Source: Candidatus Zixiibacteriota bacterium
GTDB taxonomy: Bacteria > Zixibacteria > MSB-5A5 > GN15 > PGXB01
Reading direction: 5' to 3'
NCBI GenBank assembly: GCA_016933955.1
Contig: JAFGTT010000004.1
Span: forward strand, 1-64,000
DNA: 64,000 bases
This document shows, piece after piece, positions 12,386 through 28,996 of the stretch; the first letter of the stretch is position 1; every line of letters begins with the position of its first letter. Both the position numbers and the translations under genes were made by a program. Under the pieces are notes generated by a model, which saw only the letters and a list, made by a program, of their open reading frames with translations, was not told the DNA's origin and ran no database searches.

Positions 12386-14569
12386 TTAACCGAAGAGCGA
12401 CAGCACAACCTGCGGAACCTGGTTGGCCTGGGCCAGCATGGCGGTGCCGGCCTGCAACAGAATCTGGCTCTTCACGAAAGTCGACATTTCCTTGGCCATG
12501 TCGGTATCGCGAATACTGGATTCCGAGGACTGCAGGTTCTGCGAGGCTACCCGCAGGTTTCTCAGGTTGGATTCCAGAGTGTTTTTCTGGAAACTACCGA
12601 GAGTGCCGCGGGATGTGGAAACCTCATCGATGGCCTGATCAATGATGGACTGGGCATCCTGAGCGCCCTGGACCGTTGTCACATTGATTGCTGACAATGA
12701 GCTGAACATGTTACCGGCCACATTCTTAGCCAGAGCGGAAGCGGACATGTTGTTAAGACCGATTTTGGCGATCTGTCCAACGTTGGCACCAATCTGGAAG
12801 ACCAGCGACTGGTCGGTATTGGTGATCTGCTCGCTGCCACCGTTGGAGGTAAGGTCGATATTGAGTTTCATCGATTCCGTCCGATCGGCGTTGTAAACCA
12901 GCGTATCAACACCGGCGGTAACGGCCGTAGCCGGACCGGAGTCGAGACGGACATCGTATTTCGCCGCCGTGACATCAAGCAGCATATTACCGAGGTTGAC
13001 GCCCTGGTTGGCGGTTGCCAGAGTAATACCTATCGTTCCGCGACCGGATTCGCCGGTAGCCTTATTGGCTATGGTCACGTTGCGGCTGCTGCCATAATCG
13101 ACAGCCGAAATCGTGTTGGTATAATTGTCGAAGCTGATTAATGCATCGGTCCCCTGAACAGCCACGGCATCAGTGGTAAGGCCGAGAACGCTTCGAGCCG
13201 AACCCACACCATCGCCGGAGACGGCGGCTTTCAGCTGAATGCTGTAGTCCGAACCTTCATCACTCAGGGTGAACTTGATCCGATCCGTCCCGAGAGCGCT
13301 GGCTGTCAGGTTAGCCACGCTGGTTCCCTCAACGGTGCCAAAGGCGGTGGCATCATCGAGCTTGTCATTGATTTCGGTTATCAAGGCTGACAGCGAAGTA
13401 TAGGTATTGGCCGCGATCTGAATGGTGGTGTCGACGCTGGCCGAGGTTTTGGCCACGTCAATCTGGAATCTCAGATCCTGATGCGAAACGCCGCGGGACG
13501 AGGCATCGGCAAAGCTGAACCAGGCCACGCCGGCGGTGGTTGAAGAATCATCAACGGCCACGGAGTATCCGGAACCCTCGTTGGTCGAAGTGAACTGGAG
13601 GGTGGCACCGTCAAGAGCAGCCTCAACTTTACCGGCCAGTTCGGCATTGGAGTTGATGGCCGCATTCCACAACGAAACCAGATCGGCTCTCTGGGTCGTG
13701 GCGCCGGCGGCGGTCGAAACATCGATGTTCAAAGTCTGCCAGCCGGTGGTGGATTCACCGTTTTCCTGATAATTCAATTTCACCGTGTAGGTTCCGCTGT
13801 GAGTCGCGGCGGCACCGATAGCTCCACCGGTATCCACGATGGCTTTGGCGGCGGCGGTATCAAAAGTAATACCATTGCCCCAGGCATCGAGAATGTTGAT
13901 GCTATCACCCGATTTTGTAGCGCCCGCGGAAGCCTGGATAACGTCGAGGTTGTGTATACCATCGGTCAGGTTATATGGCGTTATGGTACTGTCGAGCGAA
14001 AGACCATAAGAAGTGGTATTAAGCGAAGCTGTCGGATCAGCTGTCTTGGTGGCCACGATAGAATGGGATCCGGTGGTCAGGTAGCTGTCCTTAATTGTAA
14101 TACCGGTGGTATTGGCACTGGTGATGGTGGCGGTATTGGCCTTGGTGCCATCAAGCAGCTTCTTGGTTCCAAACTGGGTGTTGGCGGCAATACGATCAAT
14201 GGTCTTGATGGCATTGTCGATTTCAGCCTGATCGGCTTCCAGCTGGGCGGTGTCGTTGAAACCTTCGTTGGCGGCGTGAATGGCCAATTCTCTCATGGAG
14301 ACCAACAGGTTATTGATTTCGTTCAGAGCGCCTTCAGCCGTCTGGATCATGTTGATCGATCCCTCGGAGTTTTCGATGGCGCGGTTGAGACCGGCAATCT
14401 GGGCACGGAACTGCTCCGAAATCACCAGACCGGCCGGGTTATCAGCCGCCCGGTTGATCTGGTAACCGGACGACAATTTTTCCATGGACTTGGAAAGATC
14501 GGTCGTGGTGTTAACCAGATTGCGATGCGCGTTAATGGCGGCAATATTGTTGTTGATACGAAGTGACAT
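12386..14569 (-). CDS. fliC: flagellin FliC with large variable region
   Basis: Filament subunit exported by the flagellar type III system. 727 residues. The conserved N-terminal D0/D1 (SLRINNNIAAINAHRNL, SSGYQINRAADNPAGL, about residues 1-145) and C-terminal D1/D0 (about 635-727, ending PQVVLSLFG) are intact. Between them lies a long Ala/Thr/Ser/Gly-rich region with an internal duplication: residues about 279-345 and 368-450 both run IDV...VE...FT..EGSxYS. AAGGAGG stands 9 nt before the ATG. Expression is predicted from sigma28 (14765-14791), with CsrA acting on the leader. The Thr/Ser richness would suit glycosylation by the neighbouring transferase. Confidence 0.96.
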   Translation of the reverse strand: MSLRINNNIAAINAHRNLVNTTTDLSKSMEKLSSGYQINRAADNPAGLVISEQFRAQIAGLNRAIENSEGSINMIQTAEGALNEINNLLVSMRELAIHAANEGFNDTAQLEADQAEIDNAIKTIDRIAANTQFGTKKLLDGTKANTATITSANTTGITIKDSYLTTGSHSIVATKTADPTASLNTTSYGLSLDSTITPYNLTDGIHNLDVIQASAGATKSGDSINILDAWGNGITFDTAAAKAIVDTGGAIGAAATHSGTYTVKLNYQENGESTTGWQTLNIDVSTAAGATTQRADLVSLWNAAINSNAELAGKVEAALDGATLQFTSTNEGSGYSVAVDDSSTTAGVAWFSFADASSRGVSHQDLRFQIDVAKTSASVDTTIQIAANTYTSLSALITEINDKLDDATAFGTVEGTSVANLTASALGTDRIKFTLSDEGSDYSIQLKAAVSGDGVGSARSVLGLTTDAVAVQGTDALISFDNYTNTISAVDYGSSRNVTIANKATGESGRGTIGITLATANQGVNLGNMLLDVTAAKYDVRLDSGPATAVTAGVDTLVYNADRTESMKLNIDLTSNGGSEQITNTDQSLVFQIGANVGQIAKIGLNNMSASALAKNVAGNMFSSLSAINVTTVQGAQDAQSIIDQAIDEVSTSRGTLGSFQKNTLESNLRNLRVASQNLQSSESSIRDTDMAKEMSTFVKSQILLQAGTAMLAQANQVPQVVLSLFG

Positions 14570-14578
14570 CAGTCATTT

Positions 14579-14585
14579 CCTCCTT
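14579..14585 (-). promoter_or_regulatory. strong SD of fliC, candidate second CsrA site
   Basis: AAGGAGG with a second GGA immediately after (AGGAGGAAA), 9 nt before the ATG. GGA within a Shine-Dalgarno sequence is the usual place where CsrA blocks ribosomes, so this and the hairpin at 14596-14611 could be bound together by one CsrA dimer. Confidence 0.6.
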
Positions 14586-14595
14586 GAATAGTGCC

Positions 14596-14611
14596 GGGGT
14601 TTCCGTTCCCC
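14596..14611 (-). promoter_or_regulatory. candidate CsrA-binding hairpin in fliC leader
   Basis: On the transcript GGGG, the 8-nt loop AACGGAAA, then CCCC. A GGA displayed in a hairpin loop is the known recognition feature of CsrA/RsmA (known for the family; binding here is inferred). It lies 27 nt upstream of the ATG and about 11 nt from the SD. A second dyad, CCCTGTGCAGGG at 14627-14638, is next to it. Confidence 0.5.
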
Positions 14612-14764
14612 AACATACTTGACTACCCCTGTGCAGGGTTACATCCGATGTCAACTTTCCTATTAGACTAATAATTGGATGGAACTTATTCCTCGATACA
14701 CCTCCCCTTTAGTTTAAAATTGACTTTATAAGTGGTTTTTCTTCTATTCATATTTTTGATAATT

Positions 14765-14791
14765 AAATCGGCATAAAACCGCGAAACTTTA
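14765..14791 (-). promoter_or_regulatory. sigma28 (FliA) promoter of fliC
   Basis: Minus strand TAAAGTTT (14784-14791), exactly 11 nt, GCCGATTT (14765-14772). This matches the enterobacterial sigma28 consensus TAAAGTTT-N11-GCCGATAA at 14 of 16 positions, with the ideal spacing. It predicts a leader of roughly 190 nt, which contains several GGA motifs and the hairpin described at 14596-14611. Confidence 0.8.
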
Positions 14792-14839: not shown

Positions 14840-17515
14840 TTAGGCCGGGGCTTTGGCGGTTTCCATTTCATTCAGGCGGCGGGCGGCCGGTTCAAAATCC
14901 GGACGGATCTTGAGAATCTGCCGGTAACCTATTGCCGCGGAATCGGCATAGCCGAGATTGAGGTAGCACTCCGAGATGTTGAAAAGGCAATCAATATTTT
15001 TAGGGTTTCTCCCGAGGAATTTTTCAAAATGCGGGATTGCCGCCCCGAAAGCACCTTCCTGAAAATCGATAATCCCAAGAGCCATAACAACATCCAGATC
15101 GTCCGGGGCGATTTTGTTATAATTTTCAAGATATGTCCGGGCTTCCTTTAATTTGCCCAGGCACAGTTTGGTCAGGCCGATATTGCGATAGGTGGCGGCA
15201 ATATTTGAATTTAATTCCAGAGATCGGCCAAACAACTCCTCGGCCTCTTCAAATCTGCCCAGTTTAAAGGCACAGCCGGCCATGTCGTTGATAGCCTCGG
15301 CATTATCGGGAGCCATTTGGGTATATTTCTTATACCATTCATAAGCTGTTTCGAAATTTCCCCGGTCATAATGAACCCTGGCCAGCAATGAACAGCCATG
15401 TTCGTAACCCGGTCTCAGGTCGAGCAGACGTTCCAGAATGGGAATAGCCCGGTCATAATTATTTGAACCGGCCCAGTAAACTCCTGCTCTTTCAAGGATT
15501 TCAGGATTATCCCGGGTTAAATCGACGGCTTTACTTAAATAGTGTTCGGCCTTTGCATTTAGATTTTTCAAACCGAAATAACGTGCTTTATAGAGATTGG
15601 CCATATCGGATTCGGGATTACGGTTCAGTTCCCGGTCAATATAATCATTCGCCTTTTCAAGTTCCCGCCGATCCAGATATATGGCGGCCAATTTCAAATA
15701 CGTGTCGCTATATGGTTCCAATTCATCAAGACATTTCAGGAAATACTCCTCGGCGGATTTGAACTCCTGCCGGAAATTGGTAATCGTACCCAGCCAGTAA
15801 TAAACCTTGTGACGGGCCATGGCGTAAAGCTGGATCATACTGATTTGCTCTTTGGCCGGATCATAGACTTCCTGTTCATGCAAATATTTAAGAAAATATT
15901 CCTCGGCCCGATCCAGGTCGGAAAGCTTGGCATAGGCCTCGGCCAGAGTGAAAAGCGCATCCAGGTAATTCGGCTTCAATTCCAGAGCCCGAAGACAGAT
16001 ATTTTTGGATTCTTCGAATTGCCCCATTCTCAACAGGGTTGTGGCCTGTTGGTGCAAGGCCTGAAGACGGACACCCGGTGAATGATGTTCGTGAGTATTA
16101 CTTAGATCTACCGCTATCCGGGCATGTTTCAGAATTTTATTGCATAAACTTTCATCCGGTTCGTTGGTACTGCTTCGGAGTATCTGGGCATAATTGAAAT
16201 GGACAAACGGGTCATCCGGAAAATCCTGTAATTGTTTTTCCAGCAGAGCGGTTGAACGGGCGATTTTCTGTTTCATTTTATCCGGGGCAAGATTATAGCC
16301 ATAGTGTTTCAACCGGATTCCGGCCTGGACAATGACTTCCGATTCATCGTACTTCAACTGATTATGGACAATTCCTTCGAATTGGAATCCCGCATCACTG
16401 CGAAAAATCCGGGGATATGATAATATCGAGGTGCATTCACCTGTTTCTTTTTTGATATTGTAGATATCAACCGATATAAGCCGGCAGTTTTCCAGCGCCA
16501 TGGCTTGCCTCAGACGGCCGACATCTTCCTGCACGAATTCCTCATCGGCATCAATATAGAGAATCCAGTCGCAGGTGGCTTTGGATATGGAGAAATTACG
16601 GGCCGCGGAGAAACTTCCTTCCCACTCTTTGAAAAAAACTTTGGCTCCATACTGGTGGGCGATTTCGACCGTCCGATCGGTAGAGCCGGTATCAACAATA
16701 ATCAGGTCATCCACCCAGCTCCTGATCGAATCAAGACAATTGGGCAGCAGTTCTTCCTCGTTTTTGACGATCAGGCAGGCGCATATGGTAGCCCGATTTT
16801 CCAGCGATTTTTTAATCAACCGCAATTCCTGCACCTGGGAAGATTGCTTTAATCCCAAATCGACGATTTTTTCGGCCTGCATATAATCATTACGGTGTTG
16901 ATACAAATTGGCCAGGTTCAAATAAGCGTGTTCATAGGCCGGATTGAGTTCAATTACCCTCCGGAAAGCTACTTCGGCTTTTTCGAATTCATTACTGGCC
17001 TTGTACGCCAAACCCAGATAATTGAATATCAGATGCTCGTGTCCCTCGCTGAGATAACGAATCCCGTCCTTGCCTTTTTTCATGCGTGCGAGCAGTTTGA
17101 CAAATTTTATTGAATGTTCGAGACTTCTCTTATAATCCTTAAAACCGGTAAAGACATAGGCCAGGCCAAAATGGAAATCCGGATCATCGGAATCCAATTC
17201 CAGACCTTTTAAGGCGGCCTTTTCGGCATCAGCGCTTCTTCCGCTGTTGGCATACGAGAATGTCAATAAGCGATAATAATCCAGGCGTTCCGTATCAGGG
17301 GCATTGTCCAGTATTTCCGCCAGTGAATCAAGATAGGCTATGGCCTCGCCGAAGTTTCTCTCGAAATAAACCGCCGCCGCTTTCTTAAGAGTATTGCGTA
17401 TGGCCGTGACTGACGATTTCCCGGTCCGCTTGCCGGCCGGATTCTTTTTCCCGGCTGACGGAGTCTTACCGGATCGCGCTTTTCGCGAGGGTACTTTACT
17501 TTTCTTTGCGGCCAT
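14840..17515 (-). CDS. TPR-flanked family 2 glycosyltransferase, probable flagellin glycosyltransferase
   Basis: 891 residues. A Lys/Ser-rich N-terminus (1-40) is followed by tetratricopeptide repeats (about 45-240), a GT2 domain from about 243 (CLIVKNEEELLPNCLDSI, IIVDTGSTDRTVEIA, and the metal-binding DxD-type site in YIDADEEF near 322) to about 470, and a second long TPR array (about 480-885). No signal peptide or membrane helix, so it acts in the cytoplasm. It lies 5 nt behind fliW and just before the fliC promoter. TPR-linked transferases at flagellin loci glycosylate flagellin, so that is my inference; the sugar is unknown and no sugar-biosynthesis genes are nearby. Confidence 0.85.
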   Translation of the reverse strand: MAAKKSKVPSRKARSGKTPSAGKKNPAGKRTGKSSVTAIRNTLKKAAAVYFERNFGEAIAYLDSLAEILDNAPDTERLDYYRLLTFSYANSGRSADAEKAALKGLELDSDDPDFHFGLAYVFTGFKDYKRSLEHSIKFVKLLARMKKGKDGIRYLSEGHEHLIFNYLGLAYKASNEFEKAEVAFRRVIELNPAYEHAYLNLANLYQHRNDYMQAEKIVDLGLKQSSQVQELRLIKKSLENRATICACLIVKNEEELLPNCLDSIRSWVDDLIIVDTGSTDRTVEIAHQYGAKVFFKEWEGSFSAARNFSISKATCDWILYIDADEEFVQEDVGRLRQAMALENCRLISVDIYNIKKETGECTSILSYPRIFRSDAGFQFEGIVHNQLKYDESEVIVQAGIRLKHYGYNLAPDKMKQKIARSTALLEKQLQDFPDDPFVHFNYAQILRSSTNEPDESLCNKILKHARIAVDLSNTHEHHSPGVRLQALHQQATTLLRMGQFEESKNICLRALELKPNYLDALFTLAEAYAKLSDLDRAEEYFLKYLHEQEVYDPAKEQISMIQLYAMARHKVYYWLGTITNFRQEFKSAEEYFLKCLDELEPYSDTYLKLAAIYLDRRELEKANDYIDRELNRNPESDMANLYKARYFGLKNLNAKAEHYLSKAVDLTRDNPEILERAGVYWAGSNNYDRAIPILERLLDLRPGYEHGCSLLARVHYDRGNFETAYEWYKKYTQMAPDNAEAINDMAGCAFKLGRFEEAEELFGRSLELNSNIAATYRNIGLTKLCLGKLKEARTYLENYNKIAPDDLDVVMALGIIDFQEGAFGAAIPHFEKFLGRNPKNIDCLFNISECYLNLGYADSAAIGYRQILKIRPDFEPAARRLNEMETAKAPA

Positions 17516-17520
17516 GGCAA

Positions 17521-18009
17521 TTATACCGGCACGGCCGGTTCCATCGTTTCTATCGATTGCCCAGTGGCGATGACAGCTTCCAGGTCTTTCATCAGATAAT
17601 GCTTGATGCTGTAAGATGAATTCACCAAAACCAGCTGCTTGGCCAACCGCGTTCGGGTATTAATCAGGATCGGCCCCTGAAGATTGATCGACATATTGGC
17701 CGGGTCGGCCGGGGGAATCGTCACAATGCCATAGGTCTCGACCGTATGAACGTCATCCACCCGCAATTCTTCTATTTCTTTGGGATTGACTTCAATCCGG
17801 TAATCTTCAAAAAAGAACAGCGGGTTCACCATCAGAAAAGCCACTGACGGATTATCTACCGATTGGAACCAGAGAAAAGGCTGGCAGTCCTCCCGTTCGA
17901 TTATGCAGTATTTCTTCAGCTGTTCAAAACCAAGGACCGGTTTGGCCATGGTAATAATCCTGTCACCAGGTATTTCCAGGTCTCCGAAGCGAAGGGTCGA
18001 TATCATCAT
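17521..18009 (-). CDS. fliW: flagellar assembly factor FliW (CsrA antagonist)
   Basis: Cytoplasmic protein of 162 residues that binds either flagellin or CsrA; when flagellin is exported, FliW is free to take CsrA off the flagellin mRNA. Seen are the family features TLRFGDLEIP at the start, ITMAKPVLGFEQLKKY (FliW usually has F-x-x-G-L-P-G-F here), FLWFQSVDNPSVAFLMVNP, and the late VTIPPADPANMSINLQGPILINTRTRLAKQLVL, the most conserved block. Two ATGs stand at the start. It is cotranscribed with flgL (25 nt) and the glycosyltransferase (5 nt). Confidence 0.93.
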   Translation of the reverse strand: MMISTLRFGDLEIPGDRIITMAKPVLGFEQLKKYCIIEREDCQPFLWFQSVDNPSVAFLMVNPLFFFEDYRIEVNPKEIEELRVDDVHTVETYGIVTIPPADPANMSINLQGPILINTRTRLAKQLVLVNSSYSIKHYLMKDLEAVIATGQSIETMEPAVPV

Positions 18010-18034: not shown

Positions 18035-19972
18035 TTAACTTAAGAAATCCAGAAGGGTCGGCTGGATAATTTTGGCTGCAGCAATCAAGGCGGCCTGATA
18101 ATTGTTTTCCTGCATGGCCAGATCGGTCACCAGTTCGGTCAGATCGGCGTCCTCAACTTCACTCAGCAGATTGGTGTAATTCAAATCCAGATCGGTCAAC
18201 CGGGAATTGGTATTCTCCAGCCTGATCACCTTGGACCCGATTGAAGCCCGATTATTCGACATTTCCTGCATACCCTTGTCGAGATTGCCGATTATCTGAG
18301 CCACAACATCGCGGTCGTCATTGCGTAGAGCGTTTTCAAGTATCGTCATTGAGCCCAGGATATCCGGTGAACCGAAAATCCCGAGATTATGAGCCGTCTG
18401 CCCATCGTCTATTTCTTCAATTTTCAAAGATGTCGTTGTTGAAGTTGAACGTACCTGGATGCCGGTCTGATCGGCATTAATCGAAGCCTCGATATCAAGG
18501 CCGCTGTTATTGAACACATCAATCAGATCGCCGATTGTACTCAGCGATGAATCGCCCAGATTGAGGTTTACGACCCGGTCTCCCTGAGAAACCTTGATGA
18601 CCCCGAGATCCAAGCCCAGACCGTTTTTAATCAGGGATAGAGGCGTATTCAAATTTACCGTCGGTTGCAGTGACGATCCCGAAAAATTAATTGAGAAATC
18701 ACCCTCCAGCCCAAGGTCGGCCGCGGTTGTCTGGCCGCTGCCGGCTTCGGTAACTGAAAAATCCAGAACCGGGTTGAGATCCTTACCATTCAGAACCGGA
18801 TCGATATCGCCCAGTAAACCCAGATCGGTCGCCGTGGTTGCCGAACCATTGACCTCACTGATACTCAGGCCCAGAGTTCCCCCGGTGTTGTCCGTAATAT
18901 CAATTCCTGTGCCGCTGCCATTTATTGCGGCCGTGGCGTTTACCCCGGCGGCCGTCAGAGCGGTATTGATAGTGCTTATAACATCGCCAATATTGGCGGC
19001 CGATGATAAATCGACTTCGACATTGGTTGAATAATCGGCATTATGTACTATGAAGCCGCCATTCAACATATCTATTCCGTTGCCGCTATTCAAATTTGAA
19101 AGCGGTGTCTGGGCCGAGATAAGACCATTATCCGCTGTTACCCAGCGCAGGTTATTGCCTTCCAACCCGTAGTCGACAGCCAGATTGGTGATGCCGCCCG
19201 CCGCCAGCTGCGTATTAATGGCCGTCACGACATCGTCGAGAGTAGTCGCGGCACTGATATCGGCCAGAACGGTTATACCGGAATTATTATCTGTGATGGA
19301 GATCTGGCCCGGATTGGTTCCCGTGGTCAGATCAACTCCCTCGCCGAGATGCAGATCGGCAAGGAGAGTCGCCGCATCTACGCCAACCTCCAAATCGGCA
19401 TCTTCCCCAAGAATGGAAAGTTCATTCAACAGAAAATCCGCGCCGATGAGATTGATACCAACCTTCGATCCCGGTTCAATCTCAATCTGAAAATTGCCGA
19501 AATCCCCCTGATAAGTAAAACCGGAGGCGCTGGCTCGGATCGTTTGGACATCGGTTCGGTATCCTGAAAAAACGTAACGCCCGTCAACCTGGTTATTGGC
19601 CAGACTCAGCATCTGGTCAATTAGTTCCTTTATTTCGTTGGCGGCGGCATTCCGCGCAGTAGCATCGTAAGTGTCATTGGCCAGTGAGACAGCCACTTCA
19701 TTGGCCGAGGATACAATGTTCTTAAGATCTCCGAGAGTGTTGTCATAACCCGACAGAAGACTGAGTCCACTGGAGATATTGCGCTGGTACTGCGCGATTT
19801 CCGTAAGAGTTTTCCGATACCGTAAATCTTTCTGGGTTCCCACCGGATCATCAGATGGTTTTTCAAGCCTTCGTCCCGAAGACATCCGGGACTGCAGCTT
19901 CATATATTGAGACAATGACCGGCTGAGGTTGTAAACCACCTGGTCGGAAATCATCTGATTGGTGACTCGCAT
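18035..19972 (-). CDS. flgL: hook-filament junction protein FlgL (HAP3), enlarged
   Basis: Flagellin-related junction protein, 645 residues (317 in E. coli). The N-terminal MRVTNQMISDQVVYNLSRSL and LEKPSDDPVGTQK, and the C-terminal ADLTELVTDLAMQENNYQAAL, identify FlgL. The middle carries three copies of a module of roughly 45 residues at about 237-280, 319-365 and 470-515 (pattern IGDVISTINxxLxxAGxxATAxI...GIxIxD), like the flagellin hook IN repeat, plus three TAxDLGLxG-type motifs at about 381, 416 and 528. RBS GGGGAG is 9 nt from the ATG, within a leader containing repeated GGA. Confidence 0.93.
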   Translation of the reverse strand: MRVTNQMISDQVVYNLSRSLSQYMKLQSRMSSGRRLEKPSDDPVGTQKDLRYRKTLTEIAQYQRNISSGLSLLSGYDNTLGDLKNIVSSANEVAVSLANDTYDATARNAAANEIKELIDQMLSLANNQVDGRYVFSGYRTDVQTIRASASGFTYQGDFGNFQIEIEPGSKVGINLIGADFLLNELSILGEDADLEVGVDAATLLADLHLGEGVDLTTGTNPGQISITDNNSGITVLADISAATTLDDVVTAINTQLAAGGITNLAVDYGLEGNNLRWVTADNGLISAQTPLSNLNSGNGIDMLNGGFIVHNADYSTNVEVDLSSAANIGDVISTINTALTAAGVNATAAINGSGTGIDITDNTGGTLGLSISEVNGSATTATDLGLLGDIDPVLNGKDLNPVLDFSVTEAGSGQTTAADLGLEGDFSINFSGSSLQPTVNLNTPLSLIKNGLGLDLGVIKVSQGDRVVNLNLGDSSLSTIGDLIDVFNNSGLDIEASINADQTGIQVRSTSTTTSLKIEEIDDGQTAHNLGIFGSPDILGSMTILENALRNDDRDVVAQIIGNLDKGMQEMSNNRASIGSKVIRLENTNSRLTDLDLNYTNLLSEVEDADLTELVTDLAMQENNYQAALIAAAKIIQPTLLDFLS

Positions 19973-20049: not shown

Positions 20050-20388
20050 TCAATCGATGTTTTTTATATTACCTCGATCATCGCTCTGGTCTTTTCCCTT
20101 TGAGGATTTTTTGTATTTAATATCCGGTGACTTCCTTTTCTTTCCGATATCACCCGTAATCTTATCCTTGAGCAGTTTGACGACACTGGTGAGATCCTGT
20201 TTGACTGTCTTGGCTGCCTTCCGATTCTCCTTTTGAATCTTCACATAGATTTCTTCTCGATGGACCACCACTTTTGATGGTGCCTCGATGCCGATACGAA
20301 CCTGTCGGCCGAAGACACCAAGTACCGTAACCTTGATATCATCGCCGATAGTAATCGACTCACCCAACTTCCTTGTCAGTATCAGCAT
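20050..20388 (-). CDS. csrA: carbon storage regulator CsrA with C-terminal tail
   Basis: Dimeric RNA-binding translational repressor. Residues 1-60 are a standard Csr[21 protein letters not shown], a VRIGIEAP strand and VHREEIY with the RNA-contacting Arg. The protein then continues to 112 residues with a Lys/Asp/Ser-rich tail, about 50 residues beyond the usual 61-75, probably disordered. GGAGG lies 4 nt before the ATG. It sits between flgK and flgL, with fliW one gene further; FliW is known to bind CsrA of the Bacillus type, so a FliW-CsrA-flagellin switch is likely. The tail may alter RNA or FliW binding. Confidence 0.95.
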
Positions 20389-27595: not shown

Positions 27596-27727
27596 TTATA
27601 AGAATTATTCGTTGATACATATATACTTACTGCCGCTTAAACATTTCTTTAAACAGGGCCGCAGGAATTATTTGATTTTCGCATCTCTTTTGCTCTCAGT
27701 GTAATGACACTAAAGGGAAAAGTTATT

Positions 27728-28996
27728 ATGAAAATCTATTATACCTTATCAATCCTTATTGCTCTGGCTATTTCGGCTGTGGCCATGGCCGATCCCGGTG
27801 TTCGCGATACGGTTCGGGTGGGATCATTATCCGCTCTCCCCGGTGATCAATTCACGGTACCGGTTTATTTCTCCAATGACGAACTCCTGAATGCCGCGGA
27901 AGTAGTTCTGAAATTCGAATCCAGTAAAATGGACCTTGATTCATTTTCGCTGGTTGGCGGACGTCTGGAATATGTCGATGAAAATACGGTATTCAGTTAT
28001 ATTGCCGGCGACACTATCGACATTAACGTTATGGACTGGTCAACCTACATCCCCGAAGGAAACGGTCTTTTCTGTAATCTTTTTTTCACCGCTCACGCTG
28101 CCGCAATCCCCGGGCAAACCGCAATCGATACGGTTTCCAGGTCGGTAGCCCGAACCTGTTTTGCCGATATCTCGGCCATGCCCATATATCCGGAATTCGT
28201 CAAGGGTTTGATCGATATCAATGAACCTCCACCCAGCTCCGACTCGATTTGGGTTGATAAGGTAACAGGCTCCCCAGGCCAGACAGTCGCCGTAAATATC
28301 AACGCCTACAACACTGAGGATATTGCCAATATGAAATTGGCTCTTATCTATGGTTCCAATGATCTGATATACAACAGCACAATTTTCACAGGGACTCGAG
28401 GAGAGGCGGCGATCAGCAAAATTGTTAGTCCCAGCAGTCAATCGCTGAGGCATTTGCTGGTTACGCTGATTTTTGATGATGACGCCCCGTTGGCGCCCGG
28501 GACAGGCGTCATGGCAACAATATTATTCGATATAGAGGCATCTGCCCCCGATGGTCAGGTGGCCATAGATTCCATAAGCTACCTGGGGGCTCAGCCGCTG
28601 GAGATTACTCTTACAGAAGATTACGGCGGGCTTACCTTCACCCCCCGTTTCACCGCCGGTTATGTTGAGATAAATTCGGCCACAGCCGTTGAAGATAATG
28701 ATAATATTTTGATTCCCGAACATTATGCTCTGGAGCAAAATGTTCCCAATCCATTTAATCCCTCGACAGTCATATCATTTGATCTGCCGACGGCATCCGA
28801 TATCCGATTGGAAGTGTTTAATATAATTGGACAAAAAGTCAAAACCTTAGTTAACGGGCCCATGCCCGCAGGCCATCATAAAATAACCTTTGAAGGGAGA
28901 GGTGATAACGAACAAGTACTGTCTTCCGGTGTGTATTTCTATCGTATCAGCGCAGGAGAATTCCATCAGAGCAAGAAGATGACTTTGATAAAATAG
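27728..28996 (+). CDS. secreted cohesin-like protein with type IX sorting domain
   Basis: 422 residues, one of two convincing plus-strand genes. A signal peptide (about 1-21, ending AVAMADP) is followed by two similar beta-sandwich modules of cohesin type (about 25-160 and 170-320; pattern PGDQFTVPVYFSN...AAEVVLKFE and PGQTVAVNINAYNTEDIANMKLALIYG, each ending GLIDIN or GYVEIN). The C-terminal about 85 residues contain EQNVPNPFNPSTVISFDLP, VFNIIGQKVKTLV and SSGVYFYRI, the Por secretion (T9SS type A) sorting signal. It should be exported to the cell surface by the type IX system. Start ATG 27728 follows AAGGGA. It stands alone between two flagellar operons. Ligand unknown. Confidence 0.85.
   Translation: MKIYYTLSILIALAISAVAMADPGVRDTVRVGSLSALPGDQFTVPVYFSNDELLNAAEVVLKFESSKMDLDSFSLVGGRLEYVDENTVFSYIAGDTIDINVMDWSTYIPEGNGLFCNLFFTAHAAAIPGQTAIDTVSRSVARTCFADISAMPIYPEFVKGLIDINEPPPSSDSIWVDKVTGSPGQTVAVNINAYNTEDIANMKLALIYGSNDLIYNSTIFTGTRGEAAISKIVSPSSQSLRHLLVTLIFDDDAPLAPGTGVMATILFDIEASAPDGQVAIDSISYLGAQPLEITLTEDYGGLTFTPRFTAGYVEINSATAVEDNDNILIPEHYALEQNVPNPFNPSTVISFDLPTASDIRLEVFNIIGQKVKTLVNGPMPAGHHKITFEGRGDNEQVLSSGVYFYRISAGEFHQSKKMTLIK

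Follow-up and report, generated by a model that had tools for sequence, protein, structure and literature searches.

Which protein is modified, and with which sugar, by a large glycosyltransferase encoded between the flagellar genes fliW and fliC? The gene lies at 14840..17515 (−) of the window, by which we mean the whole 64,000-nucleotide stretch of DNA that was analyzed. It starts with ATG, encodes 891 amino acids, and has orthologues in 89 of 117 relatives. A preliminary description of this DNA had suggested that the enzyme modifies flagellin, leaving donor and sugar open. Our reading, which we regard as quite probable from the genomic comparisons below, is that this GmaR-type enzyme would O-glycosylate Ser/Thr residues of the flagellin FliC in the cytoplasm before export. 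The kind of enzyme is already known; within the literature searched, what is new is a TPR–GT2–TPR protein as a phylum-wide core gene, together with its natural variants.

Domain architecture and conservation

The center of the protein matches Glycos_transf_2 (PF00535) at residues 247–367 (E 1.1e-23), and TPR families match on either side. Both marks of the GT2 family, the PF00535 match and a conserved DXD motif, are present. The N-terminal TPR array comprises residues ∼35–239 (16799..17413 (−)) and is followed by the GT2 (GT-A) catalytic domain with a conserved C-terminal extension (residues 241–440; 16196..16795 (−)), assigned from PF00535 and the match to GmaR. The C-terminal TPR array (residues 441–886; 14858..16195 (−)) is assigned from helix pairs, conservation, and Pfam TPR matches, which run from ∼440 to ∼880. 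A single-sequence AlphaFold model, which is poor (mean pLDDT 55), predicts with low confidence helix pairs before (residues 35–239) and after (from ∼392) an α/β core. The Pfam domains thus bear out the anatomy first described for this 891-residue protein, with TPR arrays flanking GT2.

In an alignment of 64 full-length homologues, conservation is among the highest at the catalytic residues and lowest in the TPR arrays. The metal-site motif D322-A323-D324 of GT2 (16544..16552 (−)), which is common to GmaR, is at least 95% identical. The N-terminal TPR array is the least conserved part, with an entropy of 2.4–3.0 bits. Exceptions to the low conservation of the TPRs are the last unit (residues 841–870), which is the best conserved, and the stretch adjoining GT2.

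Genomic neighborhood and expression

The upstream neighbor is fliW (17521..18009 (−); PF02623, E 3.7e-38), and only 5 nt (17516–17520) separate its stop codon from the ATG of the transferase. The same gene run contains flgL (18035..19972 (−)), recognized by a Flagellin_N match and synteny, and csrA (20050..20388 (−)), which is syntenic with fliW in relatives and was named from its own sequence. On the other side, 270 nt lie between the end of the transferase gene and the start of fliC (12386..14569 (−)), the gene of the proposed acceptor, a 727-amino acid flagellin identified by Flagellin_N and Flagellin_C (PF00669/PF00700) and by its composition.

In the interval ahead of fliC, a sigma-28-type promoter, TAAAGTTT-N11-GCCGATTT (14765..14791 (−)), shows no mismatch to the consensus and is the only such site in the window. 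The placement of the gene 5 nt after fliW and ahead of the fliC promoter, as given in the preliminary description, is therefore correct. Relatives carry sites of this type in the corresponding position, with scores above those of shuffled sequences (66 intervals scanned). None was seen between fliW and the transferase gene, nor before flgL. The close gene spacing indicates that the transferase is probably part of the transcript of the flgN-flgK-csrA-flgL-fliW run. Because fliC is preceded by a late sigma-28 promoter of its own, an enzyme made with this run could precede flagellin and would be available before its substrate.

The leader of fliC (window 14570–14765 (−), ∼196 nt) contains eight GGA triplets, which are possible CsrA sites. 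Elsewhere in the window, 27704–28996 (+) encodes a protein that combines a cohesin domain with a FlgD-Ig/secretion-tail domain; its gene runs opposite to the flagellar genes. In agreement with the earlier statement that sugar-biosynthesis genes are missing beside the transferase, no sugar-nucleotide gene was recognized by eye in the list of open reading frames of the window, a subset of which was domain-searched.

Catalytic domain, acceptor, and donor sugar

Among solved structures, GmaR (PDB code 22ao; E 8.8e-41) is the closest relative of the GT2 domain, with 42% identity over 190 aligned residues. In the GT2 region, 45 near-invariant positions were compared, and GmaR has the same residue at 35 of them, including D275, D322-A-D324-E325, H384, and H404. 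The next relatives are the SunS-type S-glycosyltransferases (PDB codes 7msn and 7msk), which share a related GT2 fold with a helical extension and transfer sugar to Cys. For SunS, the comparison covered the N-terminal half, and 10 of the 29 near-invariant positions there differ. Against the SunS model TIGR04195, the protein scores 101 bits, far under the curated cut-off of 350, and FliC, the presumed substrate, does not contain a single Cys. S-Glycosylation was rejected on the latter ground, and both observations together make Ser/Thr the likely acceptor.

Other known routes of flagellin glycosylation were also considered. Neither NeuB nor GT41 (PF13844) was found in this genome, the protein's own catalytic domain being GT2. 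Maf (PF01973) is absent from the protein and had no match in any of the 117 genomes; the four matching controls are all archaea, which demonstrates sensitivity for archaeal Maf only. The respective genes were not found (with archaeal controls only for Maf), and on this ground the routes through Maf, GT41, and nonulosonates were discarded; the lack of NeuB, GT41, and Maf matches makes a nonulosonic acid unlikely as the flagellin sugar. The genome does encode MurG, which indicates that UDP-GlcNAc is made, and we infer UDP-GlcNAc as the donor. From gene content, the identity of the sugar thus appears narrowed by the absence of NeuB and Maf and the presence of MurG.

Distribution and synteny in related genomes

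The GT2 domain has a match with E ≤ 1e-50 in 89 of the 117 related genomes, nearly always in open frames of 600–1000 residues; weaker GT2 matches are short proteins of ∼270 residues. The gene is also present in 95 of the 132 genomes that make up the phylum set, which are all of one class. Synteny was read at 88 loci: 72 have fliW on the upstream side of the transferase gene and 70 have fliC on the downstream side, in 60 cases no more than 350 nt away, and 57 show both neighbors. The exceptions are mainly due to contig ends; a few loci carry other genes in the stretch read (e.g. L098, L100, L103, L105, and L112). The preliminary description had held that finding the gene pair in this genome only would speak against flagellin modification; the pair in fact recurs across the phylum.

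The presence of the gene tracks that of flagellin: it was found in 88 of 100 genomes with a Flagellin_N match versus 1 of 17 without (Fisher p 2e-11, a value that ignores shared ancestry). Four genomes encode a filament-type flagellin and no orthologue (G056, G062, G105, and G035). In G056 and G062 the contigs end near fliC, and in G105 fliC and fliW lie on different contigs; G035 is described below. A locus search of the wider genome contigs returned only distant TPR matches at 23–25% identity.

Conversely, FliW occurs without a Flagellin_N match in G081, G086, G087, G090, G096, G100, G101, G111, and G116. At two loci (L139 and L141), such a flagellin-less FliW gene adjoins csrA, which suggests a role of FliW–CsrA without flagella. 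The searches also revealed a 257-amino acid flagellin-like gene with Flagellin_N and Flagellin_C in G000 (contig C19, L140:6785–7558 (+)), directly 3′ of murG-murC-ftsQ-ftsA-ftsZ and ahead of serS. A short flagellin-like gene adjoins or lies near ftsZ in G003, G012, G033, G044, and G060 as well; no neighboring division genes were found in several outgroups.

Genes between fliW and fliC in relatives

The transferase gene directly follows fliW in 35 of 72 loci, whereas one gene intervenes in 28 and two to six in 9. The commonest extra gene, seen at 30 loci, encodes TPRs together with a GT4-type transferase domain; in some loci it is fused to a further GT2. In outlying families, the slot additionally holds genes for an NAD-dependent epimerase/dehydratase, a DegT aminotransferase, a hexapeptide acyltransferase, a protein with a formyltransferase C-terminal domain, radical SAM proteins, methyltransferases, and a GNAT acetyltransferase. 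On this gene content, the slot is a predicted flagellin-glycosylation island whose constant member is the TPR–GT2 gene. In the genome studied here, the island is reduced to one enzyme, and no other gene remains at the site. Since the fliW–fliC slot spans one to about seven genes, genome comparison could assign individual genes to parts of the glycan.

Two kinds of natural variants were observed. In G035 (L122:7912–8874), a 320-amino acid open reading frame joins the N-terminal TPRs in frame to the last TPRs, and the GT2 domain is gone. The GT4 gene is also missing there and fliC is intact; an assembly error may explain the GT2 deletion. By contrast, G050 and G053 (L086 and L088) encode a single protein of ∼1465 amino acids with two GT2 domains, each carrying a DADE motif. 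The two-GT2 proteins and the GT2-less variant are natural tests of the role of the TPRs.

Substrate and role of the TPR arrays

The central region of FliC consists of 23.8% Ser+Thr (Thr 13.3%) versus 12.4% Ser+Thr in the N-terminal helices. The flagellin region described at first as rich in Thr, Ser, and Gly is thus rich in Thr and Ser, and only mildly so in Gly (9.3%). However, composition does not single out FliC, because FlgL is also rich in Ser/Thr and FliD, at 22.9% Ser+Thr overall, is as rich as FliC. FliD moreover adjoins fliC in relatives, and in a mirror-tree comparison the distances of the glycosyltransferase correlate with those of FliD as strongly as with those of FliC. Glycosylation of other axial proteins (FliD, FlgL, or FlgK) instead of, or besides, FliC would account for these data, but we consider it quite unlikely. 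The gene directly precedes fliC in most loci, and the nearest relative as well as other precedents act on flagellin. The correlation between GT2 and the FliC center also persists once FliD is removed: after accounting for FlgL and FliD, the partial r is 0.30 for GT2 and 0.02 for the N-terminal array, which lends weak support to co-evolution with the FliC center for GT2 and none for the N-terminal array.

FliW is a flagellin-binding regulator, and the transferase gene comes after fliW. TPR solenoids bind proteins, and the putative in-frame deletion in G035 retains the TPRs without GT2. One could therefore imagine that the protein serves chiefly as a regulator similar to GmaR, or as a chaperone that holds flagellin, with catalysis as a secondary function. 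We regard this as very improbable, given that the catalytic residues are so strongly conserved and the TPRs so little. That the protein is a surface-polysaccharide enzyme located beside fliC by accident is scarcely credible: polysaccharides are frequent GT2 substrates, and a separate short GT2 match of such a kind exists elsewhere in the genome, but the gene keeps its position across the phylum and is lost together with flagellin, and the protein combines TPR arrays with a GmaR-type core.

Modification of flagellin, as first suggested for this locus, is hence supported by the phylum-wide gene pair, by GmaR as the nearest relative, and by the sugar and transferase genes in the slot of relatives. 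In the O-glycosylation that we propose, the TPR arrays would hold the flagellin chain while GT2 transfers the sugar. A single HexNAc, presumably from UDP-GlcNAc, would be placed on Ser/Thr residues of the FliC central region before export. In relatives, the additional transferases and sugar genes of the slot may extend or decorate this first sugar, judging from gene content. For the TPR arrays, holding the flagellin chain is the most likely role by analogy to FlmG of Caulobacter, whose TPR domain was shown to bind flagellin (PMC7591256). The TPR scaffold might also act as a chaperone beside FliW and FliS, holding or handing over flagellin independently of catalysis, which we think rather unlikely. 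If so, G035 would represent a natural separation of both functions.

Comparison with known flagellin-modifying systems

The closest known system is GmaR of Listeria, which transfers GlcNAc to flagellin (PMC9638930). Both proteins possess a GmaR-type GT2 core (GmaR domain, PDB codes 22ao and 22ap) followed by TPRs, and for both the substrate is, or is proposed to be, flagellin. In GmaR (637 amino acids), however, GT2 is N-terminal without a preceding TPR array, and an antirepressor domain for MogR is present (PMC9638930), whereas the protein described here has 200 TPR residues before GT2 and a longer array after it. The MogR family (PF12181) had no match in the 117 genomes, and the control genomes were also without a match.

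CD0240 of Clostridioides difficile likewise transfers GlcNAc to FliC (PMC4441256). By description, its role as the first transferase of a flagellin island, acting on Ser/Thr of FliC, resembles that proposed for the present enzyme; its locus adds phospho-threonine genes (PMC4441256), none of which was seen here. In Clostridium, too, GT2–TPR proteins have been predicted to be flagellin transferases (PMC13317340); GT2 and TPRs are there similarly combined in a flagellar island. Those predictions concern variable clostridial islands; here, a single conserved core gene is found in another phylum.

FlmG shares the combination of a TPR domain and a transferase (PMC7591256), but it is a pseudaminic acid transferase of GT-B fold, and the present genome lacks GT41. 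The Maf flagellin transferases also glycosylate flagellin before export and belong to a different enzyme family. Our analysis would extend the range of GmaR-type flagellin glycosylation to an entire phylum, one where Maf was not found, and it points to a transferase that belongs to the inherited core of the flagellar cluster and not to a variable island.
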